64,000 nucleotides of DNA from Armatimonadota bacterium. Its GTDB lineage: Bacteria; Armatimonadota; Fimbriimonadia; Fimbriimonadales; Fimbriimonadaceae. The notes beneath the pieces are model-generated. The model searched no databases, was not told the origin of the DNA, and was given only the letters and a program-made list of their open reading frames with translations. The position numbers and the translations under genes were made by a program. The stretch covers positions 434,001 through 498,000 of the forward strand of contig JAFLBD010000001.1 in the NCBI GenBank assembly GCA_017303935.1, in the 5' to 3' direction. Positions 38,074-50,510 of the stretch are shown one piece after another (the first letter of the stretch is position 1; every line of letters begins with the position of its first letter).

Positions 38074-38649
38074 ATGCCAAAGAAGATCGAAACCGTTGTT
38101 TTGCACGACAGTTCGACCCCAAAACTCGGTGATATCGAGAAGGGCGGAAACATCGTGTTGACCACAGTCGAACAGCTGATCAGTCAGGCACGCGCCAATT
38201 CGCTTTGGCCGCTCACTTTTGGTCTTGCCTGTTGCGCGATCGAAATGATGTCAACGGCCGCCAGCCGGTTCGATATTTCGCGATTTGGCTCTGAAGCCTT
38301 CCGCGCAACGCCTCGACAAGCAGACGTGATGATCATCGCTGGCCGATTGAGCAAGAAAATGGCTCCGGTCTTGCGCCAGATCTATGACCAGATGCCTGAG
38401 CCTAAGTGGGTGATCAGCATGGGTGCCTGTGCCAGCAGCGGCGGCGTCTACAACAATTACGCAATCGTCCAAGGAGCAGATCAAGTCGTCCCAGTCGACG
38501 TGTATGTCCCGGGTTGCCCGCCATCTCCTGATGCATTGATCTATGCGGTGATGAAGCTGCAAGAGAAGATCAAGCGCAGCAAGAATCCTCAGAAGTTTTC
38601 CGATCTCAAGCTGATCGAGATCAGTCCTCGAACCTTGGAGAACGCCTAA
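38074..38649 (+). CDS. nuoB: NADH-quinone oxidoreductase subunit B
   Basis: The 191-residue complex I subunit holds the N2 4Fe-4S cluster next to the quinone site. Ligands are Cys53, Cys54 (LACCAIE), Cys119 (MGACASSGG) and Cys148 ([11 protein letters not shown]). TAGACT at 38059-38064 lies nine bases before the ATG. It is followed three bases after its stop by nuoI, without the usual nuoC and nuoD between. Confidence 0.95.
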
Positions 38650-38652
38650 ACC

Positions 38653-39141
38653 ATGAGCTTTGATGTTTTTCGAGATGTAGCTAAACCGATCCTTTCCGGA
38701 TTTGGGATTACCGCCCGCCGGCTCAAGAACCCGAAGGTGACGATCAGTTACCCTGACGAACGTCGGGAACAGTATCAAAGAACTCGATGGCGACACTACC
38801 TCGTGCGCTACGATTCTGGATTGGAAAAGTGCATAGGTTGCTCGCTCTGTGCGGGAGCTTGCCCAGCGCGCTGCATCTACGTGGAAGCCGCCGAGAACAC
38901 TGACACCGAGCGCTACTCGCCAGGTGAGCGGTACGCCGTGCGGTATGAGATCAACATGATTCGGTGTATCTTCTGCGGCTATTGCCAAGAAGCGTGTCCG
39001 ACTGGTGCGATCGTCTTGCGGCAGAATTTCGAGCTCGCAGATTACAAGCGCGAAGACTTCATCTATACAAAAGAGCGTCTGCTGGAGAAATATCCGGGCG
39101 AAGCGGACGAGTGCTACAAGCGCGTTCCGACTATTCGGTAA
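38653..39141 (+). CDS. nuoI: NADH-quinone oxidoreductase subunit I
   Basis: The 162-residue ferredoxin-like subunit carries two 4Fe-4S binding motifs, [12 protein letters not shown] and [12 protein letters not shown], that pass electrons towards NuoB. The N-terminal region ([21 protein letters not shown]) is typical. It is the second and last gene of this mini-operon. Confidence 0.95.
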
Positions 39142-39645: not shown

Positions 39646-40680
39646 ATGTTTACGAAATGGCTCTCTCTTCTTTGTCTGCCGATCCTTCTTCTGGGTTGCA
39701 ACGGCGGCGCTAGCGGCTCTGGCAGTACCGACACTCCAAGTACAGATAAACCCGCCGCTCCAACTTCCACTTTGAAACCGGTCGAAGGGGAGTTTAAGGT
39801 CGCGCTGATCACTCCTGGCGAAGTGAGCGATGCCGGATGGAGCGCGATGGCGTACCAAGCGCTCAAGGGAGTGGAAGCGGTAACCGGTGCAAAAGTGAGC
39901 AATGAAGTCGCCGGAGGAACCAAGATCAAGGATTCCATGCGATCGTACGCTCAGGAAGGATATCACCTGGTTTTCGGACACGGATTTGAGTACAACGAGC
40001 CTGGCGTCGAGCTTGCCAAGGACTTCCCCAACACAGTCTTCGTGAGCAGTTCTGGTGGCAAAACCGCTTCGAACGCAGGTGCGTTTCGGTTCTACCTAGA
40101 GCAGGGCTTCTACTTGGCTGGAATCATGGCGGCAGAAATGTCCAAATCGGGCAGAATCGCCACCGTTGGTTTGGTTGGAATCCCGAGCATCGACAGCACT
40201 TTCAAGGCTTTTGAAGCGGGTGCAAAATCCGTCAAGCCAGAGATCAAAGTTGTCAACATCGGATTGCAGAACGGCACCGATGTCGCCGCTGCTAAGCAGG
40301 CCACCCTCAGCGCGATTGGCGAAGGAGCCGACTTTGTGATTCACCAGGCGAACAATGCCGCAAAGGGCGTCTTTGATGCTTGCGAAGAAAAGGGCGTCTA
40401 TGCCTTCGGTGCCAACTCGGACCAGAACGATAACAGCTCTGCGGTGATCGCTTCTGCGATCATCAATGCAAAACCCGCGTTCATCGACTTAGCAGAGCGC
40501 GTGAAGGCAGGGAAGTACGTTGGTGGCGTCGAGCTATTCGGTCTCGACAAGGGCGCGATTGACTTCATCGTCAACCCAGCGTTGGCTGGCAAAGTTTCGC
40601 CCGAAGCAATGGCCGCCGTAGAGAACGCGCGCGCTGAAATCAAAGCAGGCAAGTTGGTCGTTCCAAAGGACGAATTCTAA
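39646..40680 (+). CDS. BMP-family (nucleoside-type) ABC transporter substrate-binding lipoprotein
   Basis: The 344-residue protein has a lipobox LLLGC (Cys18), a Ser/Thr-rich linker and the BMP/PnrA fold: FKVALITPGEVSDAGWSAMAYQAL, IKDSMRSYAQEGYHLVFGHGFEY, ADFVIHQANNAAKGVFDACEEKG and GANSDQND. BMP proteins bind purine nucleosides or other small ligands. It heads a transporter operon with DinB-like, ATPase and two permease genes. Confidence 0.9.
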   Translation: MFTKWLSLLCLPILLLGCNGGASGSGSTDTPSTDKPAAPTSTLKPVEGEFKVALITPGEVSDAGWSAMAYQALKGVEAVTGAKVSNEVAGGTKIKDSMRSYAQEGYHLVFGHGFEYNEPGVELAKDFPNTVFVSSSGGKTASNAGAFRFYLEQGFYLAGIMAAEMSKSGRIATVGLVGIPSIDSTFKAFEAGAKSVKPEIKVVNIGLQNGTDVAAAKQATLSAIGEGADFVIHQANNAAKGVFDACEEKGVYAFGANSDQNDNSSAVIASAIINAKPAFIDLAERVKAGKYVGGVELFGLDKGAIDFIVNPALAGKVSPEAMAAVENARAEIKAGKLVVPKDEF

Positions 40681-40681
40681 A

Positions 40682-41149
40682 ATGTCACTCGCGGTCAAAG
40701 AGCACTTGCGGCAGACCATCGAACAGATGGCGGCATACTTTGAGAAGGACATTCTCGCCATTCCGGACGAACGATACGCGGTTAGTATCGGCGGCGTCAC
40801 GCGAACCCCAGCTGACATCGTTTACGAAGTCGCGGTCGTGAACAATCGGCTCGCGACACGACTTTCCGGCGGTGACCCAGGTCCTCCGCCCCAAGATGGG
40901 TTTATCACTGCCCCAGAGGATCAACAATCAAAATCGGCGGGCATTGATAGCTTCAAATTGAGCATCAAGAATCTTCTGGACGCGTGTGATGGATTGACCG
41001 AAGCGGACATGGACCAGGTCTATCATCTTCCGATGGGAGATATGAAGCCGAAGGACCTCTTGGGACTAGCTTCCGTACACGTTAGTTATCACCTGGGCCA
41101 GCTGAACTTCATTCAAGCGTTCTACGGCGATAATGAAGTTCACTGGTAG
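40682..41149 (+). CDS. DinB-like protein inside the BMP transporter operon
   Basis: The 155-residue protein has the four-helix DinB/YfiT pattern with metal-binding histidines in the C-terminal helix, HVSYHLGQLNFIQ. Members bind metal and often act as thiol transferases or have unknown roles. It starts two bases after the binding protein stop and is followed by the ATPase gene with an overlap, so it belongs to the operon. Confidence 0.75.
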   Translation: MSLAVKEHLRQTIEQMAAYFEKDILAIPDERYAVSIGGVTRTPADIVYEVAVVNNRLATRLSGGDPGPPPQDGFITAPEDQQSKSAGIDSFKLSIKNLLDACDGLTEADMDQVYHLPMGDMKPKDLLGLASVHVSYHLGQLNFIQAFYGDNEVHW

Positions 41150-42579
41150 TGCGCCCTAGCATGTTAATGGTTGCCGAGAAAATCACCAAGTCCTTTGGTC
41201 CGACAATGGCCTTGGAAACGGTGAGCGTTGAGTTCAAAAGCGGCGAGATACATGCTGTGATCGGCGAAAACGGAGCTGGGAAGTCCACCCTTATGAACGT
41301 TCTCGGCGGGTTCGTCATTCCGGACAGCGGGACACTAGAGATTGATGGAAAGCCCTGTCCCGTCGGTGACGTGAAAGCCATGCGAGCGATGGGGATCGAG
41401 ATGGTCCACCAACACTTTATGCTTGTCCCGGGGTTCAGCGTCGGAGAGAATTTGGTGCTTTCTTCGCTGTTTCACAACCGATCTCATTTCCAACCCCAAG
41501 AGGTGTTGCAACGCGCTCGCGCGAAGGCGGCTGAACTTGGATGGGAATTCGAGATGGATGCGATTACCGAATCGCTCCCGGTCGGAACGCAACAACGATT
41601 GGAGATTCTGAAAGCGCTCATCGCAGACGCCCAGATGATCATCCTTGATGAACCAACGGCAGTGCTTTCGGAAGACGAAGTCACGGATCTGTTCTCCGTC
41701 CTTCGCTCCTTAAAGGAGGACGGAAAAGCAGTCGTCCTGATCGCCCATAAACTTCGAGAGGTGCTTTCGATCGCCGACCGGGTGACGATTCTGCGCAATG
41801 GAAGACTCCAAGGAAGCCATACGATTGACGACTGCGACGAACAGATGCTCGCCAAGGAAATGCTGGGCGAAGATGCAGAATCCACAACTCGGACCTATGA
41901 GAAGGAAACAGGCGAATGCCTCGTCCGACTTGTTGATGTGAACTTGCGAGGTGATCGAGGAAACCTTGCCCTCGCAGGGCTATCCCTACAACTCCAAGCT
42001 GGCGAGGTGCTCGGAATCGGTGGAGTTGATGGCAACGGTCAACATGAACTCGCAGAGCTTGTTTGTGGACTACGCTCGCCGGAATCAGGCTCTGCGGACG
42101 TTCATGGCAAAGTCGCCTATATCCCCCAAGATCGGCGCGCGGAGGGTCTTAGCCTACATCAATCTGTGCAGGAAAACTTAATGATCTTGGACATGTTGCC
42201 AGATCGAATCAAGAAGTTTCAGCTGTTGAATCCATCAGAGATTCGAGCTTGGGCACAGGAACAGGTCGAAAAGTTTAATATAAAGGCTGAATCCGTTACA
42301 AAACCGGTCTCGGGATTGAGCGGTGGCAATCAGCAGAAAGTTGTGGTGAGCCGTGCGATCACCAAGAATGCTCCAATTCTCGTCGCCATGAATCCAACGC
42401 GTGGTGTGGATTTCAACTCAAGCGCGATGATCCGGGACCTGCTACGCCAAGTTGCTAGTGACGGCGTTGGAGTACTGCTCATCAGCAGCGATCAGGACGA
42501 ACTCAACGAAGTTGCTGATCGAATATTGTATCTATCTCGCGGAAAGCTGTACGAATCAAGGGTTGGCGCGGCTCTATGA
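41149..42579 (+). CDS. ABC transporter ATPase with two nucleotide-binding domains (BMP/sugar type)
   Basis: The 476-residue protein has a first domain with Walker A GENGAGKST, MIILDEPTAVLSEDE and the second, degenerate domain with GVDGNGQHELAELVCG and LSGGNQQKVVVSRAI. The fused form is usual for the nucleoside, ribose and xylose importers. GTG 41149 overlaps the DinB-like stop as TAGTG. Confidence 0.92.
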   Translation: MRPSMLMVAEKITKSFGPTMALETVSVEFKSGEIHAVIGENGAGKSTLMNVLGGFVIPDSGTLEIDGKPCPVGDVKAMRAMGIEMVHQHFMLVPGFSVGENLVLSSLFHNRSHFQPQEVLQRARAKAAELGWEFEMDAITESLPVGTQQRLEILKALIADAQMIILDEPTAVLSEDEVTDLFSVLRSLKEDGKAVVLIAHKLREVLSIADRVTILRNGRLQGSHTIDDCDEQMLAKEMLGEDAESTTRTYEKETGECLVRLVDVNLRGDRGNLALAGLSLQLQAGEVLGIGGVDGNGQHELAELVCGLRSPESGSADVHGKVAYIPQDRRAEGLSLHQSVQENLMILDMLPDRIKKFQLLNPSEIRAWAQEQVEKFNIKAESVTKPVSGLSGGNQQKVVVSRAITKNAPILVAMNPTRGVDFNSSAMIRDLLRQVASDGVGVLLISSDQDELNEVADRILYLSRGKLYESRVGAAL

Positions 42580-43586
42580 AGCGCGCGATCATTCTGGCTG
42601 CTGGACTGCTACTGATTTTGGTGCTGACGCTGCTTGCGTTTGGCTTGCCGATTGGCCCATCGCTTCAAATGTTGGCGAAAGGAGCATTTGACGGGGAAGT
42701 TGGATGGGGCCGGACACTCGCACGAACGACTCCATTGATCTTCACAGGACTCGGCATGGTAGTGGCATGGCGCGCCGGAATGTACAACATTGGCGGCGAA
42801 GGTCAGTACATTTTTGGTGGGATCTTTGGTGCGACCGTCGCAGCGGTAGGACAATCCTTGCCTCCGGCGTTGCTCATGATATTGATCCTGATTTCGACCG
42901 TCGTGGGAGGTGCACTTTACTCAAGCCTGGCAATTTGGCTCTACATCTCCCGCGGCGTCCAGATCGTGATCTCCACGATTCTGCTCAATTTCATCGCGAT
43001 CCAACTGCTCAGTTTCCTCGTGCGTGGCCCGCTGAAGGCGCCGGGCAAATTCCAACTCTCGCAAACGCTACGGCTTGATGACGCTGTCATGCTCACGCGC
43101 TTCAGCAACAAGAGTGATCTTCACGTCGGGTTCTTCCTCTCGATCCTCGCTGGACTCGCGTTGTGGCTCTATTTGTTTCGCAGTGAGGGTGGGCTCCAGA
43201 TTCGAATCGTGGGAGAAAACGCTCGTGCAGCGAAGGCGGCTGGGATGAATGTCGCCAAGATTCAATGGCGCGCGATGGCGATCTCTGGCGGATTGTGCGG
43301 ACTGGCGGGCGGAGTCGAATATCTGGGAATCTCTGGTGCGATAGACGCCGGGTTTGCCCAACAATGGGGATTCTACGGTATCCCAGTTGCGCTGTTAGCG
43401 GGCATCCACCCGGCTGGAGTTTTTGGCTCTGGTTTGTATTTCGGCGCGCTGTTTTCCGGCACACAGTACATGTCTCGTTTTGGATCAGGCGATCAGACGT
43501 TGATCTTTGTGATTCAGGGAGTGGCAGTACTCGGGCACGTTCTCCTAAATTACTACGCAAAGCGCAAGGAAGTGGAGCGTGTTTGA
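42576..43586 (+). CDS. BMP-type ABC transporter permease 1
   Basis: The 336-residue protein has about ten membrane helices and the binding-protein-dependent loop EGQYIFGGIFGATVAA, plus GLAGGVEYLGISGAI. This fits the BPD_transp_2 family of nucleoside permeases. ATG overlaps the ATPase stop codon (ATGA), showing translational coupling. Confidence 0.9.
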   Translation: MKRAIILAAGLLLILVLTLLAFGLPIGPSLQMLAKGAFDGEVGWGRTLARTTPLIFTGLGMVVAWRAGMYNIGGEGQYIFGGIFGATVAAVGQSLPPALLMILILISTVVGGALYSSLAIWLYISRGVQIVISTILLNFIAIQLLSFLVRGPLKAPGKFQLSQTLRLDDAVMLTRFSNKSDLHVGFFLSILAGLALWLYLFRSEGGLQIRIVGENARAAKAAGMNVAKIQWRAMAISGGLCGLAGGVEYLGISGAIDAGFAQQWGFYGIPVALLAGIHPAGVFGSGLYFGALFSGTQYMSRFGSGDQTLIFVIQGVAVLGHVLLNYYAKRKEVERV

Positions 43587-44442
43587 GATTCTGCGCTACG
43601 GCGCACCGGTTGCCCTTGCGGCATGTGGCGAGACGCTGGGCCAGCGAGCGGGCGTGCTGAACATCGGCCTTGAAGGGACCATGCTATCGAGCGCTTATGC
43701 AGGCGCAATCGTCGCAATTCGAACCCAAAATCCGTGGCTCGGGCTGGTCGCAGGAGTAATTGTGGGAGTGGTTTTCGCGCTGCTCAACGCACTGTTTGTC
43801 GTCAAACTCGCATCTGATCAAGTGGTGGTCGGCACAGCGATCAACCTCTTTTCTTTGGGACTCACAGGAACGCTCTATCGAGCTGAATTTGGTAAAAGCG
43901 GCACGCTGCTTAAAGTGCCGATGATCCCGGCATTGGCTCCTGGAATCGACTTTGTGACGGTCGCCATGATACTGGCGGTCCCGGCACTGACCTTTATTTT
44001 GTTCAAGACAAAATGGGGATTGCTCCTTCGATCCGCGGGCGAATATCCCCCCGCAACGGTCAGCAGTGGATTTGATGTGATCAAGATCCGCACGCAGGCG
44101 ATGCTGGTGGCGGGTGCAATGGCTGGTCTAGCAGGCGCGTATCTATCTGTGGGAGTATCGGGCAGCTTTGCAGAGGGATTCACAAACGGAAAAGGGTTCA
44201 TTGCGATCGCGTTGGTCACATTTGGTCGCTTCCGGCCGATCTGGGTTTTTGCCGCTTCGATGCTCGTCGGTGCCGCCGAACTTGTACAGTTTTGGCTCCA
44301 GGCCAAGTTCGGAACCGCGAACGTCCCAGCGGAATTCTTCATCGCACTGCCGTATGTCGTGGCTCTGCTTGTGTTGGTCATTTTGGGCAAAGGAACGCGG
44401 AGTCCAGGCGCGCTCGGAATACCGTTTCGGAGGAATTCGTGA
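43579..44442 (+). CDS. BMP-type ABC transporter permease 2
   Basis: The 287-residue second permease has the family motif GVLNIGLEGTMLSSAY and GLAGAYLSVGVSGSFAEGFTNGKGFIAIA. GTG 43579 overlaps the first permease by eight bases. It overlaps the pterin synthase gene by four bases, so the importer and that enzyme are in one operon. Confidence 0.9.
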   Translation: MFEILRYGAPVALAACGETLGQRAGVLNIGLEGTMLSSAYAGAIVAIRTQNPWLGLVAGVIVGVVFALLNALFVVKLASDQVVVGTAINLFSLGLTGTLYRAEFGKSGTLLKVPMIPALAPGIDFVTVAMILAVPALTFILFKTKWGLLLRSAGEYPPATVSSGFDVIKIRTQAMLVAGAMAGLAGAYLSVGVSGSFAEGFTNGKGFIAIALVTFGRFRPIWVFAASMLVGAAELVQFWLQAKFGTANVPAEFFIALPYVVALLVLVILGKGTRSPGALGIPFRRNS

Positions 44443-45263
44443 ATTCTGAGGTCACTCTAGTCCGGCGCATCGGATTCAGCAGCGGCCATCGGTACTGGGA
44501 TTCGAAGCTGTCGGTGGAGCAGAATAAGGAGCTCTACGGCAAGTGGGCGAGTCCGTACAATCACGGCCACAACTACGTTTTGGACGTGCGGTGCGCGGGT
44601 TCGGTTGATCCGAATTCCGGCATGGTGGTGAACATCAAGGACATCGACGCCGTGCTCTTACAGAAGGTCAAGTCGAAGTTCGACCAAAAGAGCATCAATG
44701 ACGAGATTCCAGAATTCGCGTCGCGGTCTTCGTGCATCGAAAATCTATTGATTTACATCGCCGATTTGCTTGCGGATTCGATTCCGGTTGGAGCCAGATT
44801 GACCGGACTTAGGCTCGAAGAGATGCCGACTCTTTACGGCGAATGGGACGCCAAAACAAACATGATCACGTTGACAAGAACCTATGAATTTGCCGCATCG
44901 CACCGGCTGGATTCTGCGAGCCTTTCCGCCGCAGAGAATCTCTCGATTTTTGGGAAGTGCAACAACCCGAACGGCCATGGGCACAACTATCTTCTGGAGG
45001 TCACGGTGACCGGCGAGCCCAATACGGCGACGGGAATGATCTGCGATGTGGCGGCACTCGACGAAGTTGTTCATCGGAGCGTTGTTGATCGGTATGACCA
45101 CAAGAATTTGAACTTGGACTTGCCAGAATTCTCGGGCAAGAACCCGACCAGCGAAGTCGTCGCTCAACAGATTTTTGAGACCCTCCAGCTAGTCGTCCCG
45201 GCAGCGCTGGTCCGGGTTCGCCTACACGAAACTGCTCGCAACATGTTTGAGGTGACCGCATGA
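44439..45263 (+). CDS. Tandem 6-pyruvoyl-tetrahydropterin synthase, with degenerate first domain
   Basis: The 274-residue protein carries two PTPS domains. The second (about 142-274) is complete: zinc His155, His180, His182, catalytic Cys174 in FGKCNNPNGHGHNY, and YDHKNLN. Its Cys-x5-His-Gly-His spacing is that of animal-type PTPS, not the Cys-x3 spacing of QueD. The first domain (about 1-135) keeps the zinc triad (His17, His42, His44) but has Trp36 for the catalytic Cys and FDQKSIN where DHK would be, so it is likely a structural partner or ligand-binding pseudoenzyme. GTG 44439 overlaps the permease stop and has GGAGG. Confidence 0.85.
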   Translation: MNSEVTLVRRIGFSSGHRYWDSKLSVEQNKELYGKWASPYNHGHNYVLDVRCAGSVDPNSGMVVNIKDIDAVLLQKVKSKFDQKSINDEIPEFASRSSCIENLLIYIADLLADSIPVGARLTGLRLEEMPTLYGEWDAKTNMITLTRTYEFAASHRLDSASLSAAENLSIFGKCNNPNGHGHNYLLEVTVTGEPNTATGMICDVAALDEVVHRSVVDRYDHKNLNLDLPEFSGKNPTSEVVAQQIFETLQLVVPAALVRVRLHETARNMFEVTA

Positions 45264-45967
45264 ACGTCATCATCACGGGCGCCAGCAGTGGAATCGGGCG
45301 CGAGACTGCCTTGTCGCTCGCGCGCAAAGGACATGCACTCGTTCTTGCCGCTCGGCGCGACAATCTGATCAGCGAACTTGCGATGGAGTGCTTGAAACTG
45401 GGTGCGAAGGCCGCGATTCCCGTTCCGTGCGACGTCACTCAGCCATCCGACATTCAGCGAATTGTAGACGCAATTCCCGGCCTGCCAAACGGCGAAACTT
45501 TGGTGCTCATCAACAACGCCGGGTACGCCAATTTTGAGACCTTTTCCGGTTCACCGATCGAAGCTCAACTCGATCAGATCGAAGTCAATCTGTTTGGGAC
45601 AATGCGCGTGACGAAGGCGATTTTGCCGTTCATGCTCGAAGCCAAAGCGGGAAAAATTATCAATGTCAGTTCGATCGCGAGCACGGTCGAATTTGTCGGC
45701 GGCTCAGGTTACGCTGTTTCCAAAGCCGGCATGTCCAAGTTCGGTCGCATCTTGGCGAAGGAAGTGCGGGACCAAGGAATCGCCGTGACAAACGTCCATC
45801 CAGGTGCTACCGATACCGAAATTTGGGACCATGTGGGCGGCGGGCCAGATCCCGGAAAAATGATGCCAGCTTCGGCGATCGCTGATGCCTTGGTTTGGGT
45901 CACCGAGCTACCGTTTGATCGAACGGTAGAAGAAATCACCCTCATGCCGCCGCTTGGGTTTGTCTAA
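45260..45967 (+). CDS. Short-chain dehydrogenase/reductase (candidate sepiapterin reductase-like)
   Basis: The 235-residue SDR has TGASSGIGRE at the start, NNAG, and the YxxxK pair GYAVSKAG with Ser in NVSSIAS. It binds NAD(P)H and reduces a carbonyl. Its ATG overlaps the PTPS stop (ATGA); together they could make the last two steps of tetrahydrobiopterin-like synthesis, but a role on another substrate cannot be excluded. Confidence 0.85.
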   Translation: MNVIITGASSGIGRETALSLARKGHALVLAARRDNLISELAMECLKLGAKAAIPVPCDVTQPSDIQRIVDAIPGLPNGETLVLINNAGYANFETFSGSPIEAQLDQIEVNLFGTMRVTKAILPFMLEAKAGKIINVSSIASTVEFVGGSGYAVSKAGMSKFGRILAKEVRDQGIAVTNVHPGATDTEIWDHVGGGPDPGKMMPASAIADALVWVTELPFDRTVEEITLMPPLGFV

Positions 45968-49733: not shown

Positions 49734-50510
49734 ATGAAAAATCTAGTTGCTTTGGCGTTGTTGGCCTGCGGCGTAGTCGCAGCAAACGCGCAAGTATTGA
49801 CATTGACGGACGGAGATACGTTCAATGCTGATTCTTCAGTCAACGTGAACAACGATTCGACCGCTGCTGAGTATTCGGCATCGTACGCGAACGGTTCGGG
49901 TTCTGGATTCGGCGGAACGTTGGGTGGCGCAACCATTCGAATGGAAGCTACCGCGAACAACATGTACTTCGGATTCAATCCAAACGGCGGAATCTTCAAC
50001 AACATCGTTGTTTTGATCGACTCTAAGGCTGGCGGATTCACCGACGCGACCATGAACGACACTTCCGACGGTGGCCGAGCTGCAATTACTCGACCAATCG
50101 CAAACGGATTGTTGACCGGTCCTTCGGGCTTTGCTGCCGACTATGCGATCGTTTTCGGTTCGTTCGGTTCGGTCTCGTTCGAACTCACCGGCGGCTCGTT
50201 GAACTTCTTGACCTTCAAGGATACAGCTGGTTCAGTTGCCAACAACCGAGAGCTTTCGATCTCGCGAAGCACAATGGGCTTGACCTCAGCCAACTTCGGA
50301 TTTAACTGGGTTGCATACATGACTTCCGATACGGGCTACATGTCTGACGAAGTGATGCCTGGTCCTGCGATCGCTGGTGGAAATCCAGGATTCGACAACA
50401 GCGTTACGATCTCGAACTTCAACCGATTCGAGGCAGTTCCAGAACCAGCATCGATGACTGCTCTGGCACTCGGCGTTGCTGCTTTGGCTCGACGCCGACG
50501 CAAGGCATAA
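49734..50510 (+). CDS. PEP-CTERM secreted protein
   Basis: The 258-residue protein has a signal peptide (MKNLVALALLACGVVAANAQ), a beta-rich body and the sorting tail AVPEPASMTALALGVAALARRRRKA. The tail is normally cut by an exosortase, releasing the protein to the surface or matrix; no exosortase gene is in the window. The body is rich in Asn, Gly, Ser and Asp; its function is unknown. AGGGGA lies upstream of the ATG. Confidence 0.8.
   Translation: MKNLVALALLACGVVAANAQVLTLTDGDTFNADSSVNVNNDSTAAEYSASYANGSGSGFGGTLGGATIRMEATANNMYFGFNPNGGIFNNIVVLIDSKAGGFTDATMNDTSDGGRAAITRPIANGLLTGPSGFAADYAIVFGSFGSVSFELTGGSLNFLTFKDTAGSVANNRELSISRSTMGLTSANFGFNWVAYMTSDTGYMSDEVMPGPAIAGGNPGFDNSVTISNFNRFEAVPEPASMTALALGVAALARRRRKA

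Follow-up and report, generated by a model that had tools for sequence, protein, structure and literature searches.

A bimodular PTPS with a degenerate first domain in a probable biopterin operon of Armatimonadota

Biopterin is a cofactor familiar chiefly from animals, whose PTPS enzymes are single-domain hexamers. Single-domain PTPS forms rings of three, and domains arranged in side-by-side pairs are not evenly divisible into three; in the rat enzyme, the Cys of the catalytic triad reportedly belongs to one subunit and the Asp and His to another. Other enzymes, namely uricase, GTP cyclohydrolase IB, and bimodular QueF, have chains built of two adjacent T-fold domains, and in bimodular QueF the active site is divided between the two domains (PMC5372742). 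Within the PTPS family, the biopterin type (PTPS-II) is recognized by the signature CxxxxxHGH, and signatures are likewise defined for PTPS-I and PTPS-III; tetrahydrobiopterin synthesis has been recognized in few bacteria, with about 50 COG0720 proteins assigned to it in a 2016 survey (PMC5041015). In the open literature (subscription papers lay outside the search), we found no paper describing a tandem PTPS whose first half is degenerate, no solved structure of such a protein, and no paper joining biopterin with Armatimonadota.

To see how a bacterial locus compares with these systems, we analyzed a 64,000-nucleotide stretch of DNA (the window) from a member of the Fimbriimonadaceae (Armatimonadota). 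It encodes a tandem PTPS of 274 amino acids on the plus strand (44439-45263), with a GTG start codon and GGAGG ahead of it. The protein has two matches to PF01242, both above the cutoff, one N-terminal (E = 2.3e-20) and one C-terminal (E = 3.7e-31). We read it, with a probability of about 0.78, as a bimodular PTPS-II (biopterin) enzyme in which domain 2 would be catalytic and which, together with a sepiapterin reductase, would lead to tetrahydrobiopterin, with an importer as its conserved partner.

An earlier note on this DNA had described an animal-type motif with all catalytic residues in the second PTPS domain, and a first domain that keeps the zinc histidines but carries Trp36 for Cys and DQK for DHK. 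Both descriptions hold. Domain 2 (residues 139 to 274; 44853-45263 with the stop codon) contains CNNPNGHGHNY (C174, H180, and H182), H155, D220-H221-K, and E264; it matches the PTPS-II signature (C174NNPNGHGH) and has the entire PTPS-II residue set of three zinc His, Cys-Asp-His, and pterin Glu. Domain 1 (residues 1 to 138; 44439-44852) retains H17, H42, H44, and E128 but reads WASPYNHGHNY, with W36 in place of the catalytic Cys, and D82-Q83-K, with Q83 in place of the catalytic His, and does not match the signature. The four-base overlaps that the note had reported on either side of the gene are also present: the end of the permease 2 gene overlaps the PTPS start in GTGA (44442), and the start of an SDR gene overlaps the PTPS end in ATGA (45260).

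Structure prediction, which the note had proposed as a check, gave a confident AlphaFold model (pLDDT, 96.7; pTM, 0.91) in which two T-fold domains lie next to each other. Domain 2 is 42 to 48% identical to rat, human, and Caenorhabditis elegans PTPS, which are its best PDB matches by sequence and by structure (Z about 19). With the rat (1b66/1gtq) and human (3i2b) enzymes (45 to 48% identity; Z = 19), it shares the signature, the zinc ligands, Cys-Asp-His, and the Glu; however, the animal proteins have a single domain, whereas the window protein consists of two fused domains, the first of them catalytically degenerate. Over its full length (residues 1 to 274), the model can be aligned with uricase (Z = 13; 224 residues; 4.2 Å) and with GTP cyclohydrolase IB (Z = 11.5), and its domains are therefore arranged next to each other in the manner of those enzymes. 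Both the model and the full-length alignments thus assign the protein to the bimodular T-fold proteins. It resembles uricase, GTP cyclohydrolase IB, and bimodular QueF in having two T-fold domains per chain, although these enzymes carry out other chemistry and their sequence identity to it is 5 to 12%; bimodular QueF likewise has no Cys in its N-terminal half (PMC5372742).

The state of domain 1 is shared by relatives of the window protein. Among 30 aligned relatives, none has the domain 1 Cys or catalytic His and all have the three zinc histidines; the Cys is usually replaced by Trp and in a few proteins by Ile or Phe. Because this combination of loss and retention is common to all 30, the degeneracy of domain 1 is not a matter of chance. 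The suggestion in the earlier note that a tandem PTPS with an inactive half is unusual holds against the described literature but not within the order, where this is the normal form (about 55 of 61 genomes); much of the phylum has it too. Named carriers of tandem PTPS are Fimbriimonadaceae, other Armatimonadota, Poribacteria, Binatia, one Planctomycetota genome, and one Chloroflexota genome.

When 76 domains are placed in a tree, a single branch (support, 99/97; one change each) separates every first domain from every second domain. Given this split, the sequences indicate that the tandem PTPS is the product of a single old duplication, after which the first half decayed stepwise. Both halves are complete in Binatia and Herpetosiphonaceae; domain 1 has lost its Cys and kept Asp-His in Poribacteria, a Planctomycetota, and one further family (f2); Cys and His are both lost in Fimbriimonadaceae; and the zinc ligands are lost as well in some Chthonomonadaceae-like families. 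In domain 2, by comparison, none of the 130 distinct tandem proteins has lost the Cys, the Asp, or a zinc His. The three animal enzymes in the tree (rat, human, and worm PTPS) fall among the bacterial second domains, beside that of Herpetosiphonaceae (99/92); single-domain bacterial PTPS-II proteins are outside this sample, and we therefore make no claim about origin.

We next consider the genes linked to the tandem PTPS. Counted as lower bounds, since the draft genomes have cut contigs, and with SDR and FolE assigned by sequence matches inside fixed distances, permease 2 lies directly upstream of the tandem PTPS at 81 of 127 loci, with the importer as its commonest neighbor, FolE lies directly downstream at 34 of 121 loci and FolE2 at 4 of 119, and an SDR is found within 1.25 kb at 48 of 110. 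The order PTPS-FolE-SDR occurs in Poribacteria, Herpetosiphonaceae, and another family (f5), and GTP cyclohydrolase I or IB and an SDR stand beside the tandem PTPS in other Armatimonadota, Poribacteria, and a Chloroflexota genome. At one locus (L054), the genes for phenylalanine hydroxylase (PAH), tandem PTPS, and FolE are adjacent. The tandem PTPS is therefore linked, in genome and operon, to GTP cyclohydrolase and to a predicted sepiapterin reductase, a linkage by which PTPS-II is recognized. The gene directly behind the tandem PTPS is GTP cyclohydrolase IB-like (FolE2, 24 to 29% identical) at five loci (L198, L199, L201, L228, and L229); FolE2 in the usual place of FolE is a natural swap of enzyme type.

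The earlier note had also proposed looking in the genome for GTP cyclohydrolase I and pterin-dependent hydroxylases. Classic FolE was not found in the window's genome; FolE2 is present instead, distant from the operon, and the genome has both PAH and PCD. Among 61 related genomes, FolE is above the cutoff in 8, FolE2 in 50, either in 58, and both in none, while PAH is present in 55 and PCD in 54. One genome (G012; 96% complete) is among the few that have a tandem PTPS without PAH. Another (G013, with loci L074 and L115; 100% complete) has tandem PTPS and PAH with neither FolE nor FolE2, and its PTPS lies about 4 kb from the transporter.

The SDR gene that follows the PTPS (45260-45967, plus strand) had been put forward in the note as a possible sepiapterin reductase, and its product is predicted to be one of the Chlorobium type. 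When a profile of 19 operon SDRs was compared with 177,635 PDB sequences, the first match was Chlorobium tepidum sepiapterin reductase (2bd0; E = 3.7e-60), which leads the next PDB entry by only 8 bits; with the window SDR as a single-sequence query, FabG-type reductases rank above sepiapterin reductase. The window SDR has the Ser-Tyr-Lys triad (S138, Y151, and K155), and its F92 and W189 correspond to Phe99 and Trp196 of the Chlorobium enzyme, which a review describes as indispensable for substrate binding (PMC7520308). The Trp196 equivalent is present in 58 of 60 aligned SDRs and the Phe99 equivalent in 50; the two proteins without the Trp are most likely second, unrelated SDRs of their loci (L147 and L148). 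Neither equivalent is found in four other SDRs of the window's genome. The operon SDR and 2bd0 thus have the triad and both binding residues in common, although their overall identity is low. Chlorobium sepiapterin reductase yields the L-threo form, and by analogy the likeliest product of the tandem PTPS/SDR pathway would perhaps be L-threo-tetrahydrobiopterin.

The tetrahydrobiopterin-like pathway that the note had raised is backed by the linkage to GTP cyclohydrolase and SDR, by the Chlorobium-type SDR residues, and by FolE2, PAH, and PCD in the genome. The gene cluster very probably makes biopterin, and the same cluster recurs across the phylum and in several other phyla. In the pathway that we propose, FolE2, encoded elsewhere in the genome, would make dihydroneopterin triphosphate, and the tandem PTPS would convert it to 6-pyruvoyl-tetrahydropterin, with domain 2 providing a working zinc site, the Cys-Asp-His triad, and the pterin-binding Glu. 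Domain 1, an old duplicate without Cys and His, would now be mainly a ring partner, possibly one that binds zinc or pterin. The sepiapterin reductase encoded by the next gene would turn 6-pyruvoyl-tetrahydropterin into tetrahydrobiopterin, for which PAH is the likely consumer, with recycling via PCD. The BMP-type importer would bring in a small heterocycle, with a pterin or a purine as our best guess.

Domain 1 may have a more direct part in catalysis in some lineages. Seven of the 130 distinct tandem proteins have lost the domain 2 His (Tyr, Phe, or Gly instead), and by their tree places and sequences they probably represent at least four lineages. All 7 have Asp-His in domain 1, compared with 19 of the 123 others (Fisher P = 6e-6, uncorrected for kinship). 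At one locus (L219, genome G204), the second domain reads RYDGCHLN, with Gly for the catalytic His, and the domain 1 Asp-His is intact. Because every protein without the domain 2 His has the domain 1 His, the two halves could share one active site, with Asp-His coming from domain 1 and Cys and zinc from domain 2; Fimbriimonadaceae would later have arrived at an all-domain-2 triad. The divided active site of bimodular QueF (PMC5372742) is consistent with such an arrangement, as is the catalytic triad of rat PTPS, which Burgisser 1995 (a reference in PMC7546909) describes in its title as intersubunit. In the window and in all Fimbriimonadaceae, however, the domain 1 His is gone and the domain 2 Asp-His is kept, so that there each domain 2 must pair with another domain 2. 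We consider a shared active site a serious possibility at somewhat less than even odds; the pattern suggests that the halves can share a site in lineages without the domain 2 His, and if they do, domain 1 is not dead weight in such lineages.

A second role for domain 1, to bind zinc and pterin, sense product or substrate, and regulate domain 2, would fit the retention of its zinc His positions in 116 to 127 of the 130 tandem proteins and of its Glu in 124, and Fimbriimonadaceae strongly conserve an S-x-N-D-E motif that follows the position of the lost His. Several Armatimonadota families (e.g., L204, L205, L207 to L210, and L213) have nevertheless lost the domain 1 zinc ligands too, and zinc or pterin sensing is therefore no general need; we regard this role as rather doubtful.

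The importer genes precede the PTPS on the plus strand. They encode a BMP/PnrA-type lipoprotein, the substrate-binding protein (39646-40680); a double ABC ATPase (41149-42579); and permeases 1 (42576-43586) and 2 (43579-44442), both BPD_transp_2 proteins. A BMP protein, a double ATPase, and two permeases lie ahead of PTPS in most Armatimonadota loci, and importer genes are at least partly present at L149, L154, and the Planctomycetota locus L160. In the window, a gene for a DinB_2-fold protein (40682-41149, plus strand) interrupts the BMP-ATPase order; it is absent at this place in the operons of relatives, where the ATPase gene comes directly after the BMP gene. Just upstream of the operon are NuoB and NuoI genes (38074-39141), which are also near the operon at L041, L049, and L052, and elsewhere in the window (49734-50510) is the gene of a secreted protein whose end is PEP-CTERM-like (VPEPASMTALALGVAALARRRRKA).

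The binding protein matches PF02608, is encoded with paired BPD_transp_2 permeases, and has a lipobox-like LLLGC, with G17 and C18 invariant in relatives, as expected of a BMP/PnrA-type lipoprotein; W65, H112, R148, E152, S184, T185, H233, N257, and Q260 are near-invariant in 71 relatives. To our knowledge, no bacterial ABC importer for pterin uptake has been characterized. The closest solved relatives of the binding protein are AtzT and other purine-binding BMP proteins (6pi5/6pi6 and 3s99), which hold guanine and adenine (PMC6834077). Naming the ligand from these structures failed, as most residues of the AtzT guanine site are replaced: 3 of 8 compared positions are alike (W65 for Tyr45, F114, and N236), and the stacking Trp194 of AtzT is Gly210 in the operon's protein. 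Our guess is that the ligand is a specific one related to purines or pterins. The strongly conserved pocket of so common a neighbor, and the purines held by its closest solved relatives, would also suit an operon that salvages an imported pterin or purine, with the SDR reducing something else. We find this unlikely, because GTP cyclohydrolase adjoins PTPS in many operons, which argues for de novo synthesis, and the SDR has both sepiapterin-binding residues, although salvage may still coexist with synthesis.

The window's genome encodes a separate QueD (CRFPHGH), whose gene overlaps that of a protein we take from its sequence to be QueC (L071, 5450-6629, minus strand); this is a dedicated queuosine pair, and FolB is encoded as well. 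The PTPS-I signature CxxxHGH, present in that QueD, and the PTPS-III signature ExxHGH are in neither domain of the tandem PTPS, and the genes that neighbor it, at more than 100 loci, encode GTP cyclohydrolase, SDR, and importer proteins. We therefore rejected, as highly improbable, the reading that the protein resembles PTPS-II only superficially and belongs to queuosine synthesis (as QueD, PTPS-I) or folate synthesis (as PTPS-III), even though the tandem PTPS is in the same Pfam family as QueD and passes the NCBIfam QueD equivalog model (105.2 bits; cutoff, 89.25). Because it passes this model, automated annotation may mislabel the tandem PTPS family as QueD.

A bimodular PTPS-II in a biopterin operon is thus our preferred reading. 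More tentatively, and with less than even odds, this may be a family of fused bacterial PTPS proteins that started with two working halves, whose residues were later divided or lost (in some lineages into a Cys half and an Asp-His half), and whose biopterin operon has a dedicated pterin importer; if so, that importer would represent a novel type of pterin uptake system in bacteria. The linked importer is in any case a candidate for pterin uptake. The series of first halves, from fully active to pseudoenzyme, offers a clean test of how an active site is divided in a two-domain T-fold enzyme. For the phylum and beyond, these results point to a conserved biopterin operon whose PTPS is possibly named as the queuosine enzyme QueD in databases.
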